A DNA stretch of 64,000 bases from assembly GCA_024663395.1 (NCBI GenBank), contig JANFAH010000041.1:547572-611571 (forward strand), read 5' to 3'. The notes beneath the pieces were generated by a model that saw only the letters and a list, made by a program, of their open reading frames with translations, did not search any database and was not told the origin of the DNA. This document shows positions 43,165-64,000 of the stretch, piece by piece. This DNA comes from Pisolithus tinctorius (Eukaryota; Basidiomycota; Agaricomycetes; Boletales; Pisolithaceae). A program made the translations under genes and the position numbers. Each line of letters starts with the position of its first letter. The first letter of the stretch is position 1.

Positions 43165-44450
43165 GGTTGGCCGACCTCACTGGGGGATGGATCCACACCC
43201 TGGAAGTGGTGTCGGCCGACCTCACTGGGGGATGGACCCACACCCTGGAAGTGGTGTCGGCCGACCTCACTGGACGATGGATCCACACCCTGGAAGTGGT
43301 GTCGGCCGACCTCACTGGACGATGGACCCACACCCTGGAAGTGGTGTTGGCCGACCTCACTGGGGGATGGACCCACACCCTGGAAGTGGTGTCGGCCGAC
43401 CTCACTGGATGATGGACCCACACCCTGGAAGTGGTGTCGGCCGACCTCACTGGGGGATGGACCCACACCCTGGAAGTGGTGTTGGCCGACCTCACTGGGG
43501 GATGGACCCACACCCTGGAAGTGGTGTCGGCCGACCTCACTGGACGATGGACCCACACCCTGGAAGTGGTGTTGGCCGACCTCACTGGGGGATGGACCCA
43601 CACCCTGGAAGTGGTGTTGGCCGACCTCACTGGGCGATGGACCCACACCCTGGAAGTGGTGTTGGCTGACCTCACTGGGGGATGGACCCACACCCTGGAA
43701 GTGGTGTCGGCCGACCTCACTGGATGATGGACCCACACCCTGGAAGTGGTGTCGGCCGACCTCACTGGACGATGGACCCACACCCTGGAAGTGGTGTCGG
43801 CCGACCTCACTGGGGGATGGACCCACACCCTGGAAGTGGTGTTGGCCGACCTCACTGGGCGATGGACCCACACCCTGGAAGTGGTGTTGGCTGACCTCAC
43901 TGGGGGATGGACCCACACCCTGGAAGTGGTGTCGGCCGACCTCACTGGATGATGGACCCACACCCTGGAAGTGGTGTCGGCCGACCTCACTGGACGATGG
44001 ACCCACACCCTGGAAGTGGTGTCGGCCGACCTCACTGGGCGATGGACCCACACCCTGGAAGTGGTGTCGGCCGACCTCACTGGGCGATGGACCCACACCC
44101 TGGAAGTGGTGTTGGCCGACCTCACTGGGCGATGGACCCACACCCTGGAAGTGGTGTTGGCTGACCTCACTGGGGGATGGACCCACACCCTGGAAGTGGT
44201 GTCGGCCGACCTCACTGGATGATGGACCCACACCCTGGAAGTGGTGTCGGCCGACCTCACTGGACGATGGACCCACACCCTGGAAGTGGTGTCGGCCGAC
44301 CTCACTGGGCGATGGACCCACACCCTGGAAGTGGTGTCGGCCGACCTCACTGGGCGATGGACCCACACCCTGGAAGTGGTGTTGGCCGACCTCACTGGGC
44401 GATGGACTCACACCCTGGAAGTGGTGTTGGCCAATTTCACTGGGGGATGG
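43165..44450. repeat. 45-bp minisatellite, about 28 copies
   Basis: Unit core CACACCCTGGAAGTGGTGT, then (C/T)GGC(C/T)GACCTCACTGG, a variable G/C/A/T pair and GATGGA. Because 45 is divisible by 3, several frames stay open for over 1.2 kb on both strands; these are not genes. Diagnostic variants (GTTGGCTGACC at 43661, 43886, 44156) recur every 5 or 6 units, showing higher-order copying of 225-270 bp blocks. Degenerate units continue to about 44625. Confidence 0.95.
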
Positions 44451-44747
44451 ACACAGACCTCACCACCTGGAAGTAGGGTTGGCCAAACCCTGAAAATTCC
44501 CTTGGCATAATCAATTGCTTGTCAATTTAGATGTTACCAGAAGTATTGACTCTGATGACACTTCCAGATGGACATACCCCCTGAGACCAGTGTTGGCCAA
44601 CCTCACTGGGGGGTGGCCTTACCCCCTGAATCCATGGCCATTCTTCACCTCCAGGTGATGTCAGTGATCTCACAGGGTTTGAAACTTGCAATGAGCATGG
44701 GTAGCCATATATAGGGATCCTTTTGATTCACACCATCTACAGTTTAT

Positions 44748-48932: not shown

Positions 48933-51900
48933 CTATGAGGTGGCCTTGCCTCTTCTTGCTGGAGGCTTTCGAGCATTCTTTGCCTTTGATGACTTCTTGG
49001 TCTGTGCCTCTTTCAGCCTCTGCCTTTCTAAGATGAGGGCCTTGCTAGCCAGCAGTTTGTCATATCCCGCATGCTCCAGGAGCTCCATCTGCAGTGCATT
49101 CCTGGGCTTTACCACTCGAGATGCTCGTCTCCTGGCCTGTTGCTGTTCCTTCTCGGTGGAGATCCCCTCGATCTTGTAGAACTTGGGATTTGTCACCAGA
49201 ACCACCTTCTCACCCTCCACCTGCCATGTCTTCCCAGGACTCTTTTCACTCCCTTTGGTCGCATCAGGTAATGTCTGAAGGACAGAAAATATCCTGCCAA
49301 GGTGGTCCAGCACCTCAAACTCCTCCAGGGGTGTCCTGTTCTTCATCACCTGGTGATACTCCCAAATATACCCAGGCTTCGTCCAGAAGACATTCCATGG
49401 TGACCTCCGTGAAGGTTGTCCTGCTGTGGGTCCTGGGAAAAACAGGTTGACCCTCTCTGCAAAGCTTGACTGTCAGCGACCAGCCCCTCCACTCCCTGCT
49501 ATTTCTGCATTGCAGGCCTTGAATTCGCAGGCACGTATCGTCCTGAAGGTCTGGTTCAGAGTCCAACTCTGAATGGCATCTTCCAAAGATGTTGGCTCTG
49601 GTTTTCCCTCTGAACCTGTCAGCCAAGTCGCATCCAACTGGATCCAAAGCTGACAGGTAAACAGAACGAAAAGTTTCCCTACCACTGGCGCCAGACCGGA
49701 CAGTTGGGCCGACCACTTCCAGTCCTGCATGATCAACCAAGGCTGCAGTTGGATGGTCCTTGTCAATTTGGCCCACGTCGGTCTGCTGCCAATGGGAAAT
49801 TGTTCCACTTCATCCAGAGGGGGAATCCTTGGCCAGGCAGGTCGTCCATCACCCCTCTTCAACTTTCCCTCCATCAGCTTGAGCACCTCCAGGTCATCAT
49901 GATCCTGAACTTCTGGAAGATGGGGGACATGATGCAAGTCTAGGTCCAAAAGGAAGAACATTCCCAACCGCTCACACACCCTGGAGACCTGCAGAAGGGC
50001 CATGGACTCTCTCACATGGAAGTCGAGGATTATTGCAGTGGTGGACGTGCACCGAATCATGTGGCAGATGATGCCAGTCAGAATCCCAAGGTTGGGGGGT
50101 TCCAGTTCCTTGAGAGAGATCTGAGCCAACTGGAGGGCCCTGATGCGTCCAGCCATAAATTCCAACCAGACTTTGGTCGGGATCCAGAGAATGGGATTGG
50201 AGGCTAAAAGCTCTTCCATCTGCAAAGATGGAAGCATCAGATATGAGCATGATCGAGCTTGCAAATGCATCACCCTTTGTGGCACTGCCAGTATTGCCTG
50301 CTCCACCGCAGCCCCACTCATCCTGTACTCATCTCACACCCCATATGACCTCTTCTTTGCATCTCCAGAATACATGTTGATGGCCTGCATGCATTCCCCG
50401 ATGAAGTCGTTGTTCAGGGCATAAGCATCCTTGTCCATGACAAAGGTGGGGCTGTTGTCGTTGGGTCGGATCACCTCGTAGGCCAGATTATAAGCACTTC
50501 TGAATGCGATGTGAGTTTGCCTCGCTCGTTCCTGTGACATCTCTGCTTGGATCCCCCCATACCGTCCAAGCATGCAAGTGTGGTGGGCATTTCCTCGCAA
50601 ATATCCACCTGCCCCAAAGGAAGCTTCCAGGGCATCCAGTCTCCACAATCCCACAAGCTTTTCGTCACATGTGGGGTGAATGCTGATTCCCAAGTCGACC
50701 AAGAGCTCCCCATTGGCCCTGTCTACCATGTGGGACCAATCCAGAGCTGGAAGTCCATGGAGGAGAGCTTGGACTGGCGTTTGAACCGCTCCTGACAGGG
50801 TGGTTTTCGTCCACAACTTGATTCCCTTGCATTCCAGGACAAAGAAGAAGGAACCATAGTTTGCAAATCGTGAAGGGTCCTCTCGGATGATTGCCTCCAT
50901 GGTCTTCTGGATCTGCTTCAACACTTGCATGGAAAAGGGGACTGCTTTTGGCCGACCAGCCTTCTTGGTTTTGCCACCCTTTCGTGCCTTGAACTGCACT
51001 TCCTTCAGAGTGAGAGAGACATATGGTGCACTTGAAACATCTGCATGTGCACGGATCGCTGGAAGTAGGACATGCTCCCAGAAAAAGTCGAGGACCTCCT
51101 TTGGGATGCGATTGGCACGCTTGTGTGTCATCTCATCCCTGTGGATCATCCTGGGGAAGCAAATGTAGACATTCATGGTGCCAGCAGCATTGCTCAAGGC
51201 ACCAAACACTGTGTGAGGTACTCCACACAGAGGAAATGCCATGGTCAACCATTCGGTACGGTTTCCGATGGCACTGGAATCTGCCTCTGACTGAGGCACA
51301 AGGATGTCGACATACACATGATTGTGCTTGTGCATAGGAGCCTTTTCCTCGACGATGGGACCAAGGTAGATGGGCAGCGGTGTGTTGAACTGTAGGGAAT
51401 GCGTCACCCATATGAGACTGTCAATGTCCACGGTGACTTCCAACTCCTCTGGAGTCACCAACTTGTGATCCAGCTCCAGGTCCAGGCAGATGTGACGTCC
51501 ATCCTCGTGCCGCCCATTCACAAAGGTGTTCACGAGACATTCTGAGGTGCTCGAGCCAATCTTGATCATCTGAGAGGCACCCAGTATGACCACATCATCC
51601 ACATGGACTCTTGATGGATGGGGCACCTGCCGGGCAAGAGAGTAATTTCCTGTAATGAAGCGATCAGAAGAGGGCACAAGGGCAGAATATGAGCACTCAC
51701 CAGTAACATGGTTGCCAATTTGATGAGAAGACTGGTAGTTAGCTGGAACACCCACTTGGAGGATATGGTCTGACAATCTGATGGGGGGACCCAAGTAGAA
51801 CATCTGGTTGAAGGAACTCAGCAGACGATAGCCATAATCTCGAAAGGATGTCCACATCCCAGGCCGATAGTAGGGCTCCTCCACGATCTCATTGCAGTTG

Positions 51901-53677
51901 CGGTCCTGGTGCAAACTTTCCAAGACAGGTCCTCCTTCATACTCATCAAACCTGCGATCGAAACACTTCCATCGTTGACCTTGGTATGCAGGGAGGTATA
52001 CCGGTGGAGTTGGACGTGGGAAACGGTACATCGTTCCAGCTGACCAGTCCTTGACATGCTTGCGTCGCTGGATGATCTCAAGAGGATCATCTGGAGTGGA
52101 TTCCCCTTCGACTCGATGACCATGGGCAGCCCGAGGAGGAAGTCGATCCCTGGCTCTGGCCCTGCTCACATAAGGGTAGCGCCGAAGGAGATCCCTGAGA
52201 CGCTGAGACTTGGCATCCAGAGGCAAAGGATGGTCTTCACCTTCATCTTCAGTGTCAGTCGGAAAGTCACCATTGGAGTGCACATCAGGGTTCACTACAT
52301 CGCTGGAGTCATCCCCCCTTTGGCAGCGAAGGCAGTTGGCCCCAATGACATTCAACTCACGGACGATGGTAGCATGTTGCTCTCCAGATGATTGGTTTTC
52401 TACATCCATGAGGATGTCTTCACCGATGGCTTCGGTGTCATCCCACTGTGTCCATATGTGGCCAGGGGGAAGGGTGGTTGTAGACAAGTAACGATAGTCC
52501 TCCCAGCACCTTCGACAGCCCTCCTTCACCATGACAAGCATTCTAAGGCGGAGACGATGACCACAAGGAATTGGAGGGATGTGGATGGTAGGCCTGCCAT
52601 CACCAGATAGCCCTCCTCTCATGAGTGACTCCATGACAAAGGATGCAATGGGCCCACAGTCGAAACCGTTCTGTGTCCAATTGTACACCTGCACATCAAC
52701 TTGGGTTGGGTCGATGGCATCAAATCCATGAAGAGATGCTATGCGTGTCCAGTAGAAAGGGCCATTCCATGTGTTCCAGTCATCGCGCAGTGGGTCATAG
52801 TGGGGATGGGGGGTTTCCGGGACACGTTCGATGCGCCTTCCAAGGATGAATGCAAGGTTCAACCAATAGTCAAAGACTGCAACAAAGAAGTGACTGTTTT
52901 GCATGACCACAAAGGCAATGGGAACAGATGGATTGGCAGGATGGGAATTGAAGAGATGGCGTTGACGAAAAAATTGAATCTCCTGTGCATCTGGTAAGGC
53001 ATGGGTGTCCCCACTGACAGATGGAATGACAGAGAACAAGTCGGCATAGCGGACATGCATCCTGCCCTGGACAGCATACCATTGGGACAGGAGATGAAAG
53101 TTGAGGATGCTGGCATCGATCCAAGTTTCATACCGGAGAGTCCCTAGGGTCTGGTAGGCCATTGCCCATGTGGTAGGCCTGGCCATGGAACACACTTTCA
53201 GAAGCAATCATAAGCAGACAGAGAGAAAGAGTACAGAAGAGACTCACTGATGATATCACGTACAGAAGGCGCCCCTGACTCCTGACTCAAGTCCTGATGG
53301 GGTGGATGCGATGGTGCAACTGATGGGCCATGCACATTCACAAAGGAATCATCAGAGGCATTGCTTTGATGCTCCTCTTCTGACCCACTCAAGTGGTTTA
53401 CCATGGCCTGGCACTTCTCATATATCTGGTTCAGTTCATCCTCATCAACAGAGGATTCTGGATCTTCTGGAGGAGTCATTGCTCTGGAAAGGAGACCACC
53501 CATTATTACACTGTAGGATGGGGACAGTGGAGAAGAGCATGCTGAGTCTGAATGATGAGATGGAGGAGAAATGGCCTTCATGACATTGTCAAATGCAAGT
53601 CTGATTTCACTTTCATCAGTGGAGGATGCATTGGAAGCAGCTCTGAGGGCTCTCTGGGAACGTGTCTGGGGTGCCAT
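48933..53677 (-). pseudogene. Large protein with Ulp1-like (C48) cysteine protease region; two in-frame TGA codons
   Basis: Exon 1 53677-53248 (MAPQTRSQRA, acidic/Ser-rich) joins across a 53-bp intron to a second exon at 53194. From there one frame runs about 1420 codons to 48933 with only two stops, TGA at 50334 and TGA at about 49473; the conserved-looking reading continues after both. Near the start of exon 2 lie NSHFFVAVFDYW (His, then the strand seen in Ulp1), and TQNGFDCGPIASF with the Gln and nucleophile Cys of SUMO proteases. The expected Asp about 17 residues after the His is missing (reads LGRR), so activity is doubtful. The remainder, including a Lys/Arg-rich C-terminus, is an agaricomycete-specific region unknown to me. 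Both TGAs are one CpG transition from CGA, so either two nonsense mutations or readthrough. Divergent from the BAH-PHD gene 152 bp away. Confidence 0.65.
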
Positions 53678-55299: not shown

Positions 55300-56290
55300 C
55301 CTACCCGGCGGCTGTCCGGTCGGGACTTCCCGATGCGGCGGGCCGGTCGGGACTTCCAAATAGGGAAGGTCCGACCGGTGGCTGTCCGGTCAGGACTACC
55401 AAATAGGGAAGGTCCGACCGGTGGCTGTGCAGATGGGACCGTGGACCGATGGGTTAGCATACACGTATGCTAAACAGCAAGGCGGTGGCTGTCCAGTTGG
55501 GACTACCAAATATGGTAGGTCCGACCGGTGGCTGTCCGGTTGGGACTACCAAATAGGGAAGGTCCGACCGGTGGCTGTGTGGATGGGACCATGGACCGAT
55601 GAGTTAGCATACATGTATGCTAAACAGCAAGGTGGTGGCTGTCCAGTCGGGACTACCAAATATGGTAGGTCCGACCAGTGGCTGTCCGGTCAGGACTACC
55701 AAATAGGGAAGGTCTGACCAGTGGCTGTGCAGGCAGGACTGTGTACCAATGGGTTAGCATACATGTATGCTAAATGGCAAGGTGGTGGCTGTCCAGTCGG
55801 GACTACCAAATATGGTAGGTCCGACCGGTGGCTGTCCAGTCAGGACTACCAAATAGGGAAGGTCCGACCAGTGGCTGTGCAGGCAGGACTGTGTACTGAT
55901 GGGTTAGCATACATGTATGCTAAATGGCAAGGTGGTGGCTGTCCAGTCGGGACTACCAAATATGGTAGGTCCGACCGGTGGCTGTCCAGTCAGGACTACC
56001 AAATAGGGAAGGTCTGACCAGTGGCTGTGTGGATGGGACCATGGACCGATGAGTTAGCATACATGTATGCTAAATGGCAAGGTGGTGGCTGTCCAGTCGG
56101 GACTACCAAATATGGTAGGTCCGACCGGTGGCTGTCCAGTCAGGACTACCAAATAGGGAAGGTCTGACCAGTGGCTGTGCAGGCAGGACTGTGTACCAAT
56201 GGGTTAGCATACATGTATGCTAAATGGCAAGGTGGTGGCTGTCCAGTCAGGACTACCAAATATGGCAGGTCTGACCAGTGGCTGTGCCAA
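55300..56290. repeat. Array A: 150-bp tandem repeats carrying palindrome A
   Basis: About six units. GGTGGCTGTCCAG-type boundaries fall at 55481, 55631, 55781, 55931, 56081 and 56231, so the period is exactly 150 bp. Each unit contains about 50-bp sub-repeats (GACTACCAAATA.GG.AGGT and C(C/T)GACC.GTGGCTGT) and one palindrome TTAGCATACATGTATGCTAA, at 55454, 55604, 55754, 55904, 56054 and 56204. The first copy differs at one central base. Open frames across it are repeat artefacts. Gene A starts 190 bp downstream. Confidence 0.95.
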
Positions 56291-56480
56291 CCCTTGCAAT
56301 TTACCATCCATGTATCCTAATTATTGACATGTTCTCCTTTGGCCTTCATTCCTCTCATGCTCCAAGCATCTACATGGGGATGGTGGGAATTGAATCTGAG
56401 TTTGAATGTCCAAAAATGCGGTGGCTGAGGCAATTCCCAACTTCCTTTCTTCTTGCACCATCCCTGTTGTCTTCCACACC

Positions 56481-59480
56481 ATGTATACCTGCAGCACCTG
56501 CCAAGATTCCTTTGACAACAAGGATGTCTACAAGCGTCACAGGAGACAATGTATGGCAAAGGTTGAAACATTCTTCCATGCAGGTTCTGGTAAAAGGATA
56601 TCTGTGCCTAGGAACAGCCAGGGAAACCTTGAGTGTTTTTGTTCTGACCAAGGATGTCCAAGTCCAGACAGGATTTACAAGAATGTGGAAACATTGAAGA
56701 AGCACATGAGCAAGGTGCAGTCCACATGGGTTGGACCACCCAACAAGGGTGGCAGTGCTGTGGATGAGGTAAGCATTTAAGATACGTGTATGCTAATTTC
56801 ACTTGTTAATCAGCATTGTAGAGGGCAGGTCTCCAAGAGCCCATGACATCTGAAGGGCCAGTAGAGGATGTGGTAAGGCCATAGGATACACATGTGCCAA
56901 TACCAACACTGATGATCCATCAAGGTGCAAGCAGACAGCACCACATCTGATGTAATGATGCAAAGTGATGATGTAAGCATTTAAGATACATGTATACTAA
57001 ATCTGTGACTGATGTCAGCAGGCATTGGATGGCATTGACAATGAGGAACAGGTGGGCTGCCCATTTGTATACATGTATCTTAACTGACTTCTGTGCACAG
57101 GGTCATCAATGCAATGATCCCATTGTTGTCACAGAGGCTGACCCACCCATGGAAGTGGTGAGTATCTTGACAATGTGGCCATGCTCTGTCTGATGGTTGT
57201 CCAGGCATATGAAAGGGATGGGTTAATACACCACCCCTACTTGGATGCCATTAACCTTGTGGTGGATCCTCAGCTAAAGGCACTGTGCTGCCTGCTATGT
57301 CAAGTTGCTTTGATTCGAAATGAAGCACTGGCACATCTGCATAACCAGCACAAGGGCTTACAGGTTGACATGGAGCAGTTCCGACAAGTGGTCACACAGT
57401 TGGATGTGGCAGATGACTTCCCTGAGCCCTACTTTACTCAGGTCATCTCCCCTTTCAGAGGCCTGGAGGTTTTGACAGGCATTGGTTGTGGGCACTGTGC
57501 ATATGCCACATCCTCTTCCAAGTGCATGCAGGTCCATCACAGGGAACACCACAGGGATACTGCCACCCCCAAGGATTGGACTGCTTGCAAGATGCAGAGA
57601 TTCAGCAGGAGTGGGAAGGGACGTGTCCTGTTCCAAGTCCATGACACTGCTGCCCCTGCCTGCCCTGTTCCAGTTGACGATGCCATTAGCCATCTTAGAC
57701 AACAGATGGCCCAGGCATCAACATCCAACATGCCACAGGATGAACGTGTCATCAGCCCTTGGCTTCGAACAACCAGGTGGCATGAGCATGTCACTGGCCA
57801 TGATGTGTGCATGCTACGTGACCTGGTAGAGATCCCAAGATGTGATGATGATGGCTTGTTCCCTGGACTCAAGGCAGCAGTGAGGCAGTACTTCAATGAA
57901 GCACTTGACCTCCTCACCATCACTGATGAATTGGTCCTGCAACGATTGAACTCACCAGCACCACTCAAAGAGTGAGTGATTTAAGATACATGTATACTAA
58001 ATTGGTGTGCTAACATTGGACTGACAGAGGCATCAGCAACACTCCCTTCCATCGCCACCAGAATGAGGACACGATGGACACTTACACTGCACCAGTCATT
58101 GCATTGCTATATATGCTGGGGCGAGTGCAGCAGGAGAATAGATACAGCCTACCCTTGCCTGACAGCCTCATTGCAAAGGTCACTGCCCTGGGACCAGCCA
58201 TCAGAGAGGGAGTGGATGTCTCTGCCAGCCTTCACCAAGTCTTGACTGAAGTATGGATGACCAAGTGGCCCAAGACCACTGGCAATCCCATGCCCTGTCC
58301 CACGGAGCGGATGCTGGCCCTGTATACTCTGGAGGGAGATGGAAAGCACAAGGAGCCAGCTGCAGTGACATACTACCTTGCCAGGCTCACCTACTGCATT
58401 CGCTTGGTATGCCTGAAGGAACTGAGGCAACAATCAGAATCAAGATTCAATGGTGTGGAAGAGCTGGCATGTGACGAACTCCAGCCTTGGTTCACCGAGC
58501 ACACCAACTCCCCATTCAGTCGCATCCGAGCACTGCAACATCGTGCCTCCTCCCTTGCATTCCAAACCATGTCTCTCCCTCGCATCTGGTGGACCGACAA
58601 CAAGCAGTGGACAGAACTGCTCTACAAGGGACACAGAGTCCACTTGAAGGACCTTCACACCATGTTTGCAGCCAGTGCAACATCCATTGCTGGCCTGTGG
58701 GAGCACAAGGTCCTGAGGGGAATTAAGATACGTGTATCTTATGCCAGCCTGGCAGATGACCTGGGCAACCACGATGTTGGCTACTCCTTCCTGACGGACA
58801 GGCGCAACACCTGCTTTGCTGACCGTGATGCCCTAAGCAACAAGTTTATCAATGACCCCTCACTGGCTGGCCACTTTGGAGTGTGGAGGGATGGCAGAAT
58901 GATCTGGGACAAGGGAGCCCTGCAGCAGTGGTTGAATGACTATGCTGAATTCCAAGGGGAGCTCCTGCTATGTTGTGAAACCCTCAGTGGTGCACCAGGA
59001 CGTGGCACAGAACTCACCCCTCTCACTTTCTGCAACACCAGGGAGAGGACCCAACGAAATGTGGTCATCCTGGGCCAACATGTTGCCCTACTACGCTGCT
59101 ACCACAAGTCAGCAGCAATGACTGGTCAAGAGAAGCTCATCCCCCATGCATTGGATGCCCTGACTGCTGACCTTGTCATCCAATCCTTGGCACTTGCCCG
59201 TCCATTTGCAGAACTAGCAGCATATTTGTGCTATCCACACCGGCCAGAGGTCCTGCAGCACTACCAAAGCCAACTGTTTGTCAATCACGAGCGCCTCTTC
59301 ACGACCGACAATATCAGCAACTGCATGGCAAAACTTAGTCTGCAGCATCTGCCACTGAAGCTGACAGTGAATCCTAATAATCTAAACCGTCTGCCCAGTT
59401 CCAGTCTCGAAAGCGCCTACTATAAAAGGAAATTCGAAAAAGCGCCTACTATATATGGTAATTGCACAACTCATCGATGA
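56481..59480 (+). CDS. Gene A: subtelomeric zinc-finger / OrsD-like / GRGTE protein (telomere-linked-helicase-type N-terminal part), 3' truncated
   Basis: Exons 56481-56768, 56822-56872, 56925-56972, 57019-57051, 57101-57157, 57205-57971 and 58028-59480 total 2697 nt in one frame (898 residues). Residues 1-95 hold two zinc-finger-like blocks: YTCSTCQDSFDNKDVYKRHR and a C-x-C...C...H one. The 57205 exon has CCLLCQVAL...H and IGCGHCAYA...HHREHH, the OrsD/DUF3505 layout. The last exon carries SGAPGRGTELTPLTF, then VVILGQHVALLRCYHKS, TGQEKLIPHAL. I recall this conserved stretch N-terminal to RecQ-type helicase domains in fungal telomere-linked helicases. No helicase domain follows. Homology to gene B ends at LTVNP (about 59370) and the last about 35 residues are array sequence, so the gene has lost its 3' part. 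Palindrome A occurs in four introns and once in the last exon. Confidence 0.75.
56777..56796 (+). other. Palindrome A site in intron 1 of gene A
   Basis: TTAAGATACGTGTATGCTAA; matches the array palindrome at 17 of 20 positions. Intron 56769-56821. Confidence 0.85.
56981..57000 (+). other. Palindrome A site in intron 3 of gene A
   Basis: TTAAGATACATGTATACTAA within the 46-bp intron 56973-57018; the site fills nearly half of it. Confidence 0.85.
57064..57083 (-). other. Palindrome A site in intron 4 of gene A, inverted
   Basis: TTTGTATACATGTATCTTAA. Its complement matches the intron 3 form with one mismatch, so the orientation is reversed. Intron 57052-57100. Confidence 0.85.
57981..58000 (+). 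other. Palindrome A site in the phase-2 intron of gene A
   Basis: TTAAGATACATGTATACTAA in intron 57972-58027. Gene B has its own palindrome in the intron at the same position and phase (62340-62401). Confidence 0.9.
58723..58742 (+). other. Palindrome A site in the last exon of gene A
   Basis: TTAAGATACGTGTATCTTAT, with 8-bp perfect arms TAAGATAC/GTATCTTA around GT. It reads in frame, at the protein position where gene B also carries its palindrome. A 51-bp in-frame GTGGGA...GCCAG intron spanning it is an alternative. Confidence 0.85.
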
Positions 59481-60620
59481 CTTGTGCAGGCAAAAAAATG
59501 TAAAAAATCACACAGCCACTGAAAGCTGTGTATAGCCACCGAAAGCGCCTACTATATATGGATGAAAGCTGTGTATAGCCACAAAAGCGCCTACCATATA
59601 AGGAAACAGGTTTTATATAGTACAAGGCAACTACACAACTTATTGATGAGTTGCAATGGCCTGACACCAAAAAAATCACACTGCCACTGAAAGCTGTGTA
59701 TAGCCACCGAAAGCGCCTACCATATATGGGTGAAAGCTGTGTATAGCCACAAAAGCACCTACCATATATAGAAACAAGCTGTGCAATGCCCAAGGCAACT
59801 ACACAACTCATCGATGAGTTGCAATGACCTGACACCAAAGAAAAATCATCCTGCCACTGAAAGCTGTGTATAGCCACTGAAAGTGCCTACCATATATGGG
59901 TGAAAGCTGTGTATAGCCACAAAAGCGCCTACCATATATAGCAACAAGCTGTGCAATGCCCAAGGCAACTATGCAACTCATCGATGAGTTGCAATGACCT
60001 GACACCAAAGAAAAATCATCCTGCCACTGAAAGCTGTGTATAGCCACTGAAAGTGCCTACCATATATGGGTGAAAGCTGTGTATAGCCACAAAAGCGCCT
60101 ACCATATATAGCAACAAGCTGTGCAATGCCCAAGGCAACTATGCAACTCATCGATGAGTTGCAATGACCTGACACCAAAGAAAAATCATCCTGCCACTGA
60201 AAGCTGTGTATAGCCACTGAAAGTGCCTACCATATATGGGTGAAAGCTGTGTATAGCCACAAAAGTGCCTACCATATATAGAAACAAGCTGTGCAATGCC
60301 CAAGGCAACTACGCAACTCATCGATGAGTTGCAATGACCTGACACCAAAGAAAAATCATCCTGCCACCAAAAGCTGTGTATAGCCACTGAAAGCACCTAC
60401 CATATATGGGTAAAAGCTGTGTATAGCCACAAAAGCACCTACCATATATAGAAACAAGCTGTGCAATGCCCAAGGCAACTATGCAACTCATCAATGAGTT
60501 GCAATGGTCTGACCACCAAAAAAAAAAATCACACTGCCATTGAAAGCTGTGTATAGCTGCTGAAAAAATTACACTGCCATGCAAAGCACCTACCATGTAT
60601 AGATAACAGCTCTGCATAGC
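59400..60620. repeat. Array B: 170-bp tandem repeats carrying palindrome B
   Basis: About seven units. The palindrome core CAACTCATCGATGAGTTG lies at 59804, 59974, 60144, 60314 and 60484 (period 170), with variant forms at 59467 and 59636. Each unit also has two GAAAGCTGTGTATAGCCAC stretches and two ACC(A)TATATA/G stretches. Frames on the minus strand (79-80 residues repeated) are artefacts. The array replaces the 3' part of gene A and precedes gene B. Confidence 0.95.
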
Positions 60621-60633
60621 CACAGATAGCCAG

Positions 60634-60642
60634 TATATATAG
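60634..60642 (+). promoter_or_regulatory. Candidate TATA box of gene B, derived from array B
   Basis: GTATATATAG about 100 bp before the ATG at 60736, followed by a CT-rich leader (60661-60705) typical of fungal start regions. The same CCATATATAG motif occurs in every array B unit, so the promoter looks like the last, diverged array repeat. Confidence 0.45.
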
Positions 60643-60735
60643 CATCCATTGTGAGAAAGGTATTTCTTTCCTCTTTCCCTCCCTTCATTTTCTTTCTTCT
60701 GATCTCTCTCATCATCACCATCATCACACAGTAGT

Positions 60736-63700
60736 ATGGCTTACACCTGCAGCACCTGTGGAGCAGAGTTTGACAACAAAAATCTACACAACACTCACAA
60801 CAAAAAATGTGTCAGAGTATCAACCTTTACTGCACCTGATGGACAGCAGGTTACAGTGCACAGGACAGGCAGTCTATTCTTATGCTACTGTTCTGAGGCA
60901 TCCTGCCCTAAACCAACAGGGTATTCAACCACAGATGCCTTGAAAGCACACATGAAGAGGGCCAAGTCCACTTGGTTAGGCCCAGAAAAAAAGGTAAATC
61001 AAAGCATTCAACATTCAATTGCAACTGAAAAAACATGTAGAAACAGAGTGAAATGTCATCCTCATCATATAATACTACTGCCTCTGGCCATTCCAGTGCC
61101 ATGGCCCCTTCAACTAGCACCATGTCTGCACAACTCATCGATGAGTTGTGCAATCAAGGATCAGTAAGTGCTGGTTTGCTAGCTTGACAGTGGTCTTTGA
61201 CACCACAATGCAGGCCCCAGCTGGGGATATCAACATGCATTCCCCATCAGCAGAGTCTTCAGCCAGCAGCACAGACAGGGTAAGCTCACCCACCTTTGCA
61301 CAACTCATCGATGACTTATGCAAGTCATTGCAGCATGGACATGGATCCATAGCATCTCCCATGTCAGTGCAAGTGGGGTCTCCAGTCCCAGAGTCCATTC
61401 AAGACATTTCTTTCAAAGTAAGATTAAAAGAATTTGGCAAGCTCGTACTACAAGCCTGATCTCATGGTCACAGTCTTTGCTTCCATCCAAAAAAAACATA
61501 CAAACCACTCAACCAGCCCAGTCACAGCTGTCTGCTGTGGGTGGCCTCATCTACCACCCATATCTCAGCACACTCCACCTGGCTGTCAACAAAGAATTTC
61601 TCTGCCTTGTATGCACAAGTTGCAAGATCACCATTCCCAGAACCAACATGACCAACCACATTGCCACCAATCATTCCATCATGAACGTGGATCAGATCCA
61701 GCTCAATGGTGCCTTGTCAGAAACCAATGTTGCTTCTGTTCTCCCCACAGAAATCAGAGGACCACGAGACATTGTCCAAGGGCTGGCAGTCTGGGATGCA
61801 TTTTCATGTGACCACTGTCCAAAAATCTACACAACAGAGCAGAAAATACAGGACCATCACCAACGAGAACACAAGAATATCACAGCACCACGAGCATGGA
61901 GGATGTGCAGAGCTCAAAGCATGAATGCACAGGGCTATGGCACACATCATATCCTCTGGGAAGTCAAAGAGCCAGCAGTGGCTGATGCCAAAGACATTTC
62001 CACAGGAGCATTGGCAAACAGCCTCCTAAAGGAATTGGAACAAGACTTCTGCATCCCCCCTCAAGCCAATCAAGACTTCTGCATCCCCCCTCAAGCCAAT
62101 CAAGACGAGCGCATGATCACTCCATGGCTCATGACAACACGATGGCATGAATATCTGGCTACTGCTCCACATGAAGTGGAAACCTTGCGAAACCTGGTAG
62201 CAATACCCAAGGACAACGATGAGACCTTGCCTGGACTGCGATTGGCAGTCACTCAGTATTTCAAGCATGCTTTGGACCTTTTGGACACCTCAAATGAGCT
62301 GGTCTTGCAGCGATTGAATTCACCAGACCCAGTCAAAGAGTAAGCACCATCATCACATGCATAACTCATCGATGACTTATGCACACACACCCTCACAACA
62401 GGGGCATCTCAAATACACCATTGCATAGGCACATGCTAGCAAAGACAATGGATGGCTATGTCATCCCAGTGGCTGCTTTGCTGGCCTTTCTCCTTTGCAA
62501 AGTGCCTAGAAGCGAAGAGCTAGCCAATGCATTGCAGACACTACTGGAAGGATTGCAGGGCAGGGCCAATCAAGATGTCATTTGCAAATGCATTCATGCA
62601 GTGTTGATCAGCACCTGGACCATTACCTGGAAACGAATCACACCTGGCACCATTGCAGATCCAACCGAAGAGTGTCTTGCACTCCTGACACTGCAGCGAG
62701 GGGGCACATTCAAGGAACCCAAGGACATCACCAACACCATTGCCAAGTTTACATACTGCATGCGCTTGACATTCCTCATGGAGATCCAGAACTGTGCTGC
62801 ATCCACCGACCCAGAGGTTCAGCACAAAGCATGTGACAGCCTTCAGCCTTGGTTCACTGAAAAAACACTTTCAACATTTGCTCGTCTTCGCTCCCTCCAA
62901 CATCGTGCCAGTGCCATCTCCTATGACACTATGGGCCTGCCAAAAATTTGGTGGAAGGATACTGAAAACTGGACATCCATGCTCTACAAAGGTGAAGAGA
63001 TCCAGTTCAGGGATCTGTGTTCCATGTTTGCAGACACAGAGGCAAGGCTAGTGGAGCTTTGGGAACAATGCATCCTCAATGGCACTGCACAACTCATCGA
63101 TGAGTTGTGCATAGTGGATGACCTCACCAACAGAGAGGTGGGGTATTCCTTTGTTGCAGATCCCAGGAACACTGCATTCAAGTGCAAGGGACAACTTGTC
63201 CAAGCTGCATTGGCAGGTGAAGGAGGGTTTGCTCACTATGCTACAGTCTTGGCTGATGGCAAGGTGCAATGGAACAAGAGGGCACTGAGGACATGGCTTC
63301 AGGACTATGCAGAGATGGGAGCACTGTTGCTGTTGCGAGCAGAAATGCTGAGTGGAGCCCCAGGTCGGGGCACAGAGCTGACTGCCATGACATATCGCAA
63401 CACAAAGACACGGCCCACCCGTAACCTGGTCATGCTTGGCAACCATCTCACCATCCTGTGCCAGTACATGAAGATGACTGCTCTCACTGGACGAGACAAG
63501 ATGATACCACATGCTCTCGATGGCCTGACCAGCAACATCATGATACAAGACTTGGCCCTGGCCTGTCCCTTTGCAGAGATTGCTGCCAAAGTATGCTTCC
63601 CAGACAAGCCAGAGATCAGGCAACTCTACCATGACCACCTGTTTGTCAACTTTGACAGACTGTTTACATCAGAGGACCTTTCAAACATCATGTCCAAATA

Positions 63701-63866
63701 CAGCCTGCCCTGCCTCAAGTTTGCCTTGACCATCAATCCTTGGCGCCACATCCAGACTGCTTGGAAACGCAAGTTCCAATGTCTGGCAGAGGATATCATG
63801 GAGGAGGACATGGTGGACAATGTGGAAGCCACTTCAGGCAGGGCACATGAGGTTAGGTTAGGTTAG
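60736..63866 (+). CDS. Gene B: paralogue of gene A, truncated by the telomere
   Basis: Exons 60736-60993, 61041-61163, 61214-61279, 61334-61417, 61474-62339 and 62402-63866 keep one frame (953 residues as read). Same plan as gene A: YTCSTCGAEFDNKNLHNTH finger, CYCSEASC...H block, OrsD-like region (LCLVCTSCKITI...H; FSCDHCPKIY...HHQREH), then SGAPGRGTELTAMTY, VMLGNHLTILCQYMK, TGRDKMIPHAL. A duplicated QDFCIPPQAN stretch (62044-62103) is a recent 30-bp tandem copy. After LTINPWRHIQTAWKRKFQ about 30 more residues follow, then the frame runs into telomere repeat at 63851, where the stop is telomeric sequence. The helicase part expected in a telomere-linked helicase is absent. Identity to A is moderate, so the duplication is old. 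Confidence 0.75.
61127..61152 (+). other. Palindrome B site in exon 2 of gene B
   Basis: Perfect 26-bp palindrome: TGCA, the core CAACTCATCGATGAGTTG, then TGCA. Read in frame it encodes AQLIDELC. A 36-bp GT...AG segment around it would be too short for a normal intron, so it is taken as exonic. Confidence 0.9.
61297..61322 (+). other. Palindrome B site in an intron of gene B
   Basis: Same core with G-to-C and G-to-A changes in the right arm (GATGACTTATGCA). It lies inside the GTAAGC...GCAG intron 61280-61333, but would also read in frame (AQLIDDLC) if retained. Confidence 0.85.
62358..62383 (+). other. Palindrome B site in the phase-2 intron of gene B
   Basis: TGCATAACTCATCGATGACT followed by TATGCA, in intron 62340-62401. 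Same intron position as the palindrome A site at 57981 in gene A. Confidence 0.9.
63086..63111 (+). other. Palindrome B site in the last exon of gene B
   Basis: Perfect 26-bp palindrome read in frame as TAQLIDELC. It falls after WEQCILNG, aligned with the gene A site after WEHKVLRG. Confidence 0.9.
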
Positions 63867-64000
63867 GGTTAGGTTAGGGTTAGGTTAGGTTAGGGTTAGG
63901 TTAGGTTAGGGTTAGGTTAGGTTAGGTTAGGGTTAGGTTAGGTTAGGTTAGGGTTAGGTTAGGGTTAGGTTAGGTTAGGGTTAGGTGGGTTAGGGTAGGT
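63851..64000 (+). repeat. Telomere repeat, mixed TTAGG and TTAGGG
   Basis: The last 150 bases are TTAGG units with a TTAGGG every second to fourth unit, oriented 5'->3' towards the end as expected for a right-hand telomere. The final 20 bases are less regular. It starts abruptly inside gene B with no spacer. Confidence 0.9.

Follow-up and report, generated by a model that had tools for sequence, protein, structure and literature searches.

The stretch analyzed here (64,000 nucleotides, hereafter the window) forms the right end of contig C41 (611,571 bases) in the Pisolithus tinctorius assembly (92.5 Mb), and represents a chromosome end of this fungus. Two array-gene units, A and B, were confined to the last 8.7 kb of the window, each consisting of a tandem array followed by a truncated gene of the telomere-linked RecQ-helicase (TLH) family, with a long palindrome of its own repeated in the array and inside the gene. 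It is these palindromes, and the protein that might recognize them, that are considered below, using one assembly of one species together with protein records. Gene B was truncated by the telomere and gene A by unit B, and both stopped before the helicase. The deposited model of gene A (P0042, 822 aa) starts further in than position 56481, and the 3′ part of the gene, from about 59365, is read-through into the 5′ flank of unit B, which was also present at a decayed B unit on another contig. This flank (window 59365–59490; L083 230–345) opens with the telomere-like word CCTAATAAYCTAAAC where it meets unrelated DNA, and may preserve the trace of an earlier chromosome end. The deposited model of gene B (P0001, 840 aa) starts at about 61121.

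An earlier note on this window had placed palindrome A in six 150-bp repeats, four introns and one exon of gene A, and palindrome B in seven 170-bp repeats, two introns and two exons of gene B, with neither occurring in the other unit or in the rest of the window. Mismatch-tolerant searches of the whole window bore this out (Table 1). At ≤3 mismatches, palindrome A gave 10 matches, all at 55454–58000 (0.01 expected; none of 100 shuffles reached 10), and palindrome B gave 11, all at 59467–63107 (0.01 expected). At ≤5 mismatches to any of three forms, there were 12 sites for palindrome A, six in the array, one in the leader, four in introns and one in an exon according to model P0042; the leader site had not been recorded before, and the first array site carried 1 mismatch. 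The 11 sites of palindrome B, a number unchanged by looser matching, were divided by model P0001 into seven in the array, two in introns and two in exons. Among the 16 palindromes with a half-score ≥8 in the whole window, 14 were these A and B sites.

Table 1. Array-gene units, palindrome sites and telomere in the window (TRF, Tandem Repeats Finder).
Feature	Position	Strand	Basis or remark
Unit A array, 6.3 copies of a 150-bp repeat	55346..56285	+	TRF, period 150
Class I array sites of unit A, one per repeat	55454, 55604, 55754, 55904, 56054, 56204		
Degenerate class I site, leader of gene A, 3 mismatches	56301..56320		Absent from the earlier note
Gene A, truncated TLH-family gene (C2H2, OrsD, recombinase-like region)	56481..59480	+	
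Class I site, gene A intron	56777..56796		Intron by P0042
Class I site, gene A intron	56981..57000		Intron by P0042
Class I site, gene A intron	57064..57083		Intron by P0042
Class I site, gene A intron directly before the recombinase-like exon	57981..58000		
Class I site, gene A exon	58723..58742		Same codons as gene B exon site 63088
Unit B array, 6.2 copies of a 170-bp repeat	59465..60565	+	TRF 59503-60565, period 170
Class II array sites of unit B	59465, 59634, 59802, 59972, 60142, 60312, 60482		
Gene B, TLH-family gene truncated by the telomere (C2H2, OrsD, recombinase-like region up to INPWRHIQTA)	60736..63866	+	
Class II site, gene B exon	61129..61150		Start of model P0001
Class II site, gene B intron	61299..61320		
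Class II site, gene B intron directly before the recombinase-like exon	62360..62381		
Class II site, gene B exon	63088..63109		Reads GTAQLIDELC; same codons as gene A exon site
Telomere-type repeat, TTAGG/TTAGGG mixture, terminates gene B	63850..64000	+	TRF and sequence

Genes A and B and their paralogues are members of the TLH family, A and B being truncated ones. With the last exon of gene B as query, 38 matches were found genome-wide, many of them within tens of kb of contig ends; two C2 copies, unlike the subtelomeric ones, were about 0.9 Mb from the contig end. The full paralogues C43, C11 and C23 had the order zinc finger, OrsD, conserved region and helicase, with SGAPGRGTEL, WRHIQTA and QAGHTRSTENRVYG following one another in the conserved region. 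The domain OrsD (PF12013; Pfam cut-off 26.6 bits) scored above its cut-off in both A (39.6 bits) and B (35.1 bits), as did the helicase PF00271 in C43; helicase matches adjoined 11 of the positions of full-length paralogues, and an NCBIfam RecQ subfamily matched a partial P. marmoratus protein under its cut-off. A RecQ-type helicase was a feature of the intact paralogues and not of A or B, while the OrsD domain and the subtelomeric multi-copy arrangement were both found. TLH-type subtelomeric multi-copy RecQ helicases occur in Ustilago (UTASa/UTASb), Agaricus, Magnaporthe and Metarhizium. In the portions of the published reports available to us, Ustilago UTASb has an OrsD domain (PMC10532341), and for the Agaricus genes no domain beside the helicase core was found (PMC7473861). 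In P. tinctorius, by contrast, the helicase comes after a zinc finger, OrsD and a recombinase-like region, and the same portions make no mention of palindromes for Agaricus or Ustilago. Literature searches returned no title or abstract describing these palindromes.

Across the family, the palindromes spanned 20–28 bp and belonged to three unrelated site classes, namely class I (TTAGYATACATGTATRCTAA and close forms), class II (CACAACTCRTCGAYGAGTTGTG) and class III (ATAAGCRACCGGTYGCTTAT). Upstream DNA was read at 15 TLH loci (14 of the 18 longest matches to the gene B exon, and the B copy on C55), and all 15 had sites of their own class both upstream of the zinc finger (2–8) and in the gene (3–7). 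The region beyond the gene, read at part of these loci only, held further sites in D, C43, C45, C2fwd, C38, C18 and C42, those past the helicase gene (beyond +4.1 kb) numbering 8 in C43, 13 in C38 and 5 in D. Class III was the class of the ten C-type units read, class II that of B, B2, C55 and D, and class I that of A; the D form of the class II site differed from the B form by one symmetric pair of changes. Only the own class was present in 14 of 18 units (15 TLH units and three of gene family E, described below), and the foreign-class sites of B2, C28, C2fwd and C35 were all outside the gene. No site appeared in 20 dinucleotide shuffles of each of six units. Exact class III sites numbered 98 genome-wide, and two isolated class III places, read among the matches listed, were subtelomeric solo arrays. 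The idea of the earlier note that the palindromes are a repeated label tied to these genes agreed with what the 15 loci showed. Its suggestion of a copy-specific label did not hold: the label is that of a lineage class shared by several units, and a label private to each unit was rejected in view of class II in a retrotransposon, class I in family E and mixed classes in decayed relatives of gene A.

Sites of different class recurred at matching positions. With distances counted from where the recombinase-like exon starts, recurrent positions in lineages of different class were near −1240, −1050, −30, +1650 and +2000 to +2130, and a site near +700 was common to A and B only. Four of the five in-gene A sites lay ≤30 bp from a B2 site, which was equalled by 41 of 100,000 uniform random placements; two of the four D sites were matched within ≤60 bp in B2 and C38 (and in A where present), equalled by 58 of 20,000. 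The place of the gene A intron site at 57981 was occupied by an own-class site in B2, D and the C-type genes. Around the +700 exon site, the genes A, B, D and C43 were of equal length and aligned without gaps over 32 residues, with their own palindrome in A and B and none in D and C43. Because all four have the same length without gaps, the letters at this place were changed, not inserted; an insertion relative to site-less relatives was not seen at this one exon site examined. The P. marmoratus TLH proteins P0007, P0030 and P0111 encode a class II site in the same linker, read in a frame other than that of the B exon site, so that it is the letters and not the peptide that persist. The reading of the site in several frames (AQL..., HNSSMSC, ATRRRLA), and its occurrence in arrays and introns too, led us to reject a peptide-level motif (AQLVDELC). 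A 16-bp palindrome different from classes I–III, TTTCTGACGTCAGAAA, was observed in L017, L018, L019, L020 and L022, which are near-identical class III genes; it lies in their recombinase-like exon, not far from where A and B carry their exon site.

The classes were not limited to TLH genes. At ≤2 mismatches, the D form had 733 matches in the genome (B and D sites included), against 4 for a reversed control. All 11 sampled class II places, five clustered and six further exact sites that were not chosen at random, were in a single high-copy retrotransposon of the long terminal repeat (LTR) type with an H2C2 integrase domain, unrelated to the TLH genes. According to gene models read by eye from open frames, as were those of family E, this retrotransposon carried sites in different reading frames, four in one coding part and one ahead of the integrase, and it had variant spellings of the class II site identical to those of D. 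The two isolated B-form sites read belonged to a decayed retrotransposon copy and a solo B array. The earlier note had named the scattering of both palindromes through the genome as one finding that would count against it; one half of this was found, as class II was scattered genome-wide in the unrelated retrotransposon. A P. marmoratus protein homologous to that of the retrotransposon, aligning over 41% of the query, was without the site-bearing stretches; because the TLH proteins of P. marmoratus encode the class II site and this homologue does not, the retrotransposon seems to have acquired an older TLH address. One retrotransposon copy (L068 926–943) was without the reverse-transcriptase part, its deletion junction falling inside two class II palindromes, a case of short-homology recombination or template switching. 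Class I sites filled gene family E, introns included, which was found at six places and is unrelated to TLH. Two open frames, L046 3164–3844 (GGQHRTRAL) and L055 4612–5208 (NGNHRVALI), the second belonging to family E, are reminiscent of ParB-like proteins but had no Pfam match, and a ParB-like identity of gene E was not adopted.

Evidence of constraint came from class III, for which six genes were compared at five in-gene positions (six copies at four of them and five copies at the fifth). When substitutions were split into transitions and transversions, a second look taken after all substitutions had been counted and based on pairs that are not independent, class III transversions were 5/1391 in the sites, 381/4323 in the flanks and 4582/60,506 elsewhere. 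Transitions were equally frequent in class III sites and elsewhere, and many transitions resembled CpG loss. The E genes, too similar for this comparison, gave 0 vs. 4 transversions. Class III sites therefore look constrained as DNA, as far as can be judged from these comparisons.

The palindromes are predicted to be recognition sites of a protein encoded by the element itself, most likely of the N-terminal zinc-finger/OrsD part of the TLH protein, a prediction for and against which we find the case about evenly balanced. Sequence-specific self-recognition is proposed because the palindrome is in part constrained, repeated through the element, lineage-specific and common to unrelated mobile DNA. 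The TLH protein, as a dimer, would bind the palindrome of its own class along the element; its specificity would shift at times, to be followed by the sites in the arrays, the introns and those exon stretches that tolerate change. The purpose would be to mark the element's own DNA, most likely keeping silent chromatin off, as VANC does for VANDAL, and a gypsy-like retrotransposon with gained class II sites would use the TLH address. More tentatively, and somewhat short of probable in our judgment, the whole may be a self-addressing system in which the TLH zinc-finger protein recognizes a long palindrome, the address is rewritten in place when lineages split (three addresses in one genome), addresses have been taken up by an LTR retrotransposon and by a second gene family so as to benefit from the system, and the helicases may also be recombinases; it would be an independent fungal counterpart of plant VANC anti-silencing. 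The self-addressing idea of the earlier note would keep its gene-tied label, with constraint in class III, and lose its unit-specificity, each class being shared.

The likeness is to a plant system, that of the VANDAL elements, which are Mutator-like elements (MULEs) of Arabidopsis. According to the portions of the reports available to us, related VANDAL elements differ in short motifs that occur in introns and in intergenic and terminal non-coding DNA and make up tandem repeats (PMC5735166; PMC10398659), and the unrelated transposon AT9TSD1 carries the VANC6 motif and responds (PMC5735166). To judge from those portions, a family-specific motif running through the element, its arrays and introns, and shared with an unrelated element, is what both systems have in common. 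They differ in host and proteins, and the VANC motifs are short and non-palindromic, whereas the sites of P. tinctorius are palindromes of telomere-linked helicase genes and occupy exons too. Binding and demethylation have been demonstrated for VANC/VANDAL; for P. tinctorius, binding and de-silencing are proposed. The P. tinctorius genes would work like VANC without being VANDAL/MULE members, as Pfam gave only OrsD, weak C2H2 and helicase matches. If the proposal is true, fungi have independently evolved a capacity hitherto described in plants, that of selfish DNA to recognize itself by sequence, and the address of one selfish element is exploited by another. Many fungi have TLH genes at their chromosome ends, and a lineage-specific address shared with a retrotransposon would make their purpose testable.

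Several results weigh against this proposal. General slow evolution of the sites was not found when all substitutions were counted, with 94/1574 in sites vs. 394/5981 in flanks over nine comparisons and a clearly lower value in two of the nine, and the class III contrast emerged only from the later split described above. Sites of the B genes changed more than their flanks, showing no constraint, and site and flank change did not differ in the retrotransposon. The recurrent positions may be due in large part to shared introns, which are natural free space and call for no deeper cause; the +700 exon site, where the letters were changed in place, tells more. Decayed relatives of gene A had class I before the recombinase-like exon, and in four of the six a class III-like site followed downstream, an argument against any strict rule of one class. 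The C2H2 Pfam matches of A and B, moreover, were under their cut-offs. As to the part of the protein that could read the sites, the zinc fingers of B and D were closest (score 257, next 201), and in a genome search with the D zinc finger the next matches after D itself were the remaining class II genes, namely the three B copies. A zinc finger as reader would fit this similarity, but the domain trees do not single it out. The zinc finger and each half of the recombinase-like region gave trees in which class III was always one fully supported clade, and class II together with P. marmoratus was compatible with a single clade in the three domain trees, neither shown nor rejected. The zinc finger was not demonstrated by these trees to be the specificity domain.

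Four other explanations were weighed. Host DNA-binding proteins, whether silencers, architectural proteins or transcription factors, might bind the palindromes, which would accumulate in several kinds of repeat, the TLH protein being no reader, which we consider unlikely. No hijack would then be needed for class II to be common to TLH genes and an unrelated high-copy retrotransposon, or class I to gene A and family E. However, a host reader does not predict that the class follows the TLH lineage, the three unrelated classes would require three such readers, and in P. marmoratus the retrotransposon homologue is without the site-bearing segments, yet the TLH proteins encode the class II site.

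A second explanation concerns the recombinase-like region. Tyrosine recombinases have a pentad R-K-H/N-R-H-Y of characteristic order and spacing, and they and protelomerases act on palindromic or inverted-repeat DNA. In an alignment of 81 rows, R335 was present in 76, K370 in 81, R461 in 73, H494 in 75 and Y503 in 74, the first H of HxxR was N in 58 of 81 rows, and H494 and Y503 were 9 residues apart, so that the catalytic residues of a tyrosine recombinase were found in order. The region had no Pfam family and no PDB sequence match, and in hhalign comparisons its profile did no better against E. coli XerC, XerD, FimB and FimE than 9 control proteins. Because the residues are in order and sequence or profile similarity is absent, the region is called recombinase-like only, and what points to a putative tyrosine recombinase is a set of motifs only. 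The palindromes could be recombination or end-processing sites of this region (Crypton- or protelomerase-like), at which cutting would make and reshuffle arrays and units at chromosome ends. The perfect palindromes, the conserved pentad order and spacing, and the internal deletion that joins two palindromes in one retrotransposon copy are in favor of such a role. We nevertheless rate it as distinctly improbable, given the failed database and profile comparisons, the ordinary explanations available for a single short-homology deletion, and the hazard that sites in essential exons would pose with a cutting enzyme. Pentad-like residues are common to protelomerases, tyrosine recombinases and the present region, which differs in showing neither sequence or profile match nor evidence of hairpin ends; a literature search found no paper on a tyrosine recombinase in telomere-linked helicases.

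Plain autoregulation, in which the protein would repress or activate its own gene via operators in the upstream array and the intragenic copies would be secondary, agrees with upstream sites at all 15 loci. It is hardly probable, as an operator would not need the sites in introns, in exons, past the helicase gene and in the retrotransposon.

Volvox organelle palindromes and Rickettsia palindromic elements are short palindromes in coding and non-coding DNA, insertions without a reader gene; P. tinctorius differs in that no insertion was seen at the exon site examined and the class follows the gene lineage. That the sites are footprints of tiny palindromic insertions spread within units, an alternative raised in the earlier note and suggested by the palindrome being all that array, intron and exon sites have in common, is very improbable, because the +700 exon site arose without length change and the scarcity of class III transversions favors selection over drift after insertion.

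Two further features of the window were observed outside the units. An open frame of 957 aa (50334–53207, − strand) had no Pfam match; near-identical copies adjoined the class III unit of C38 and gene E of C78, and it is a repeated element of its own. A minisatellite at 43169–44459 consisted of 28.7 copies of a 45-bp unit that were 95% alike.

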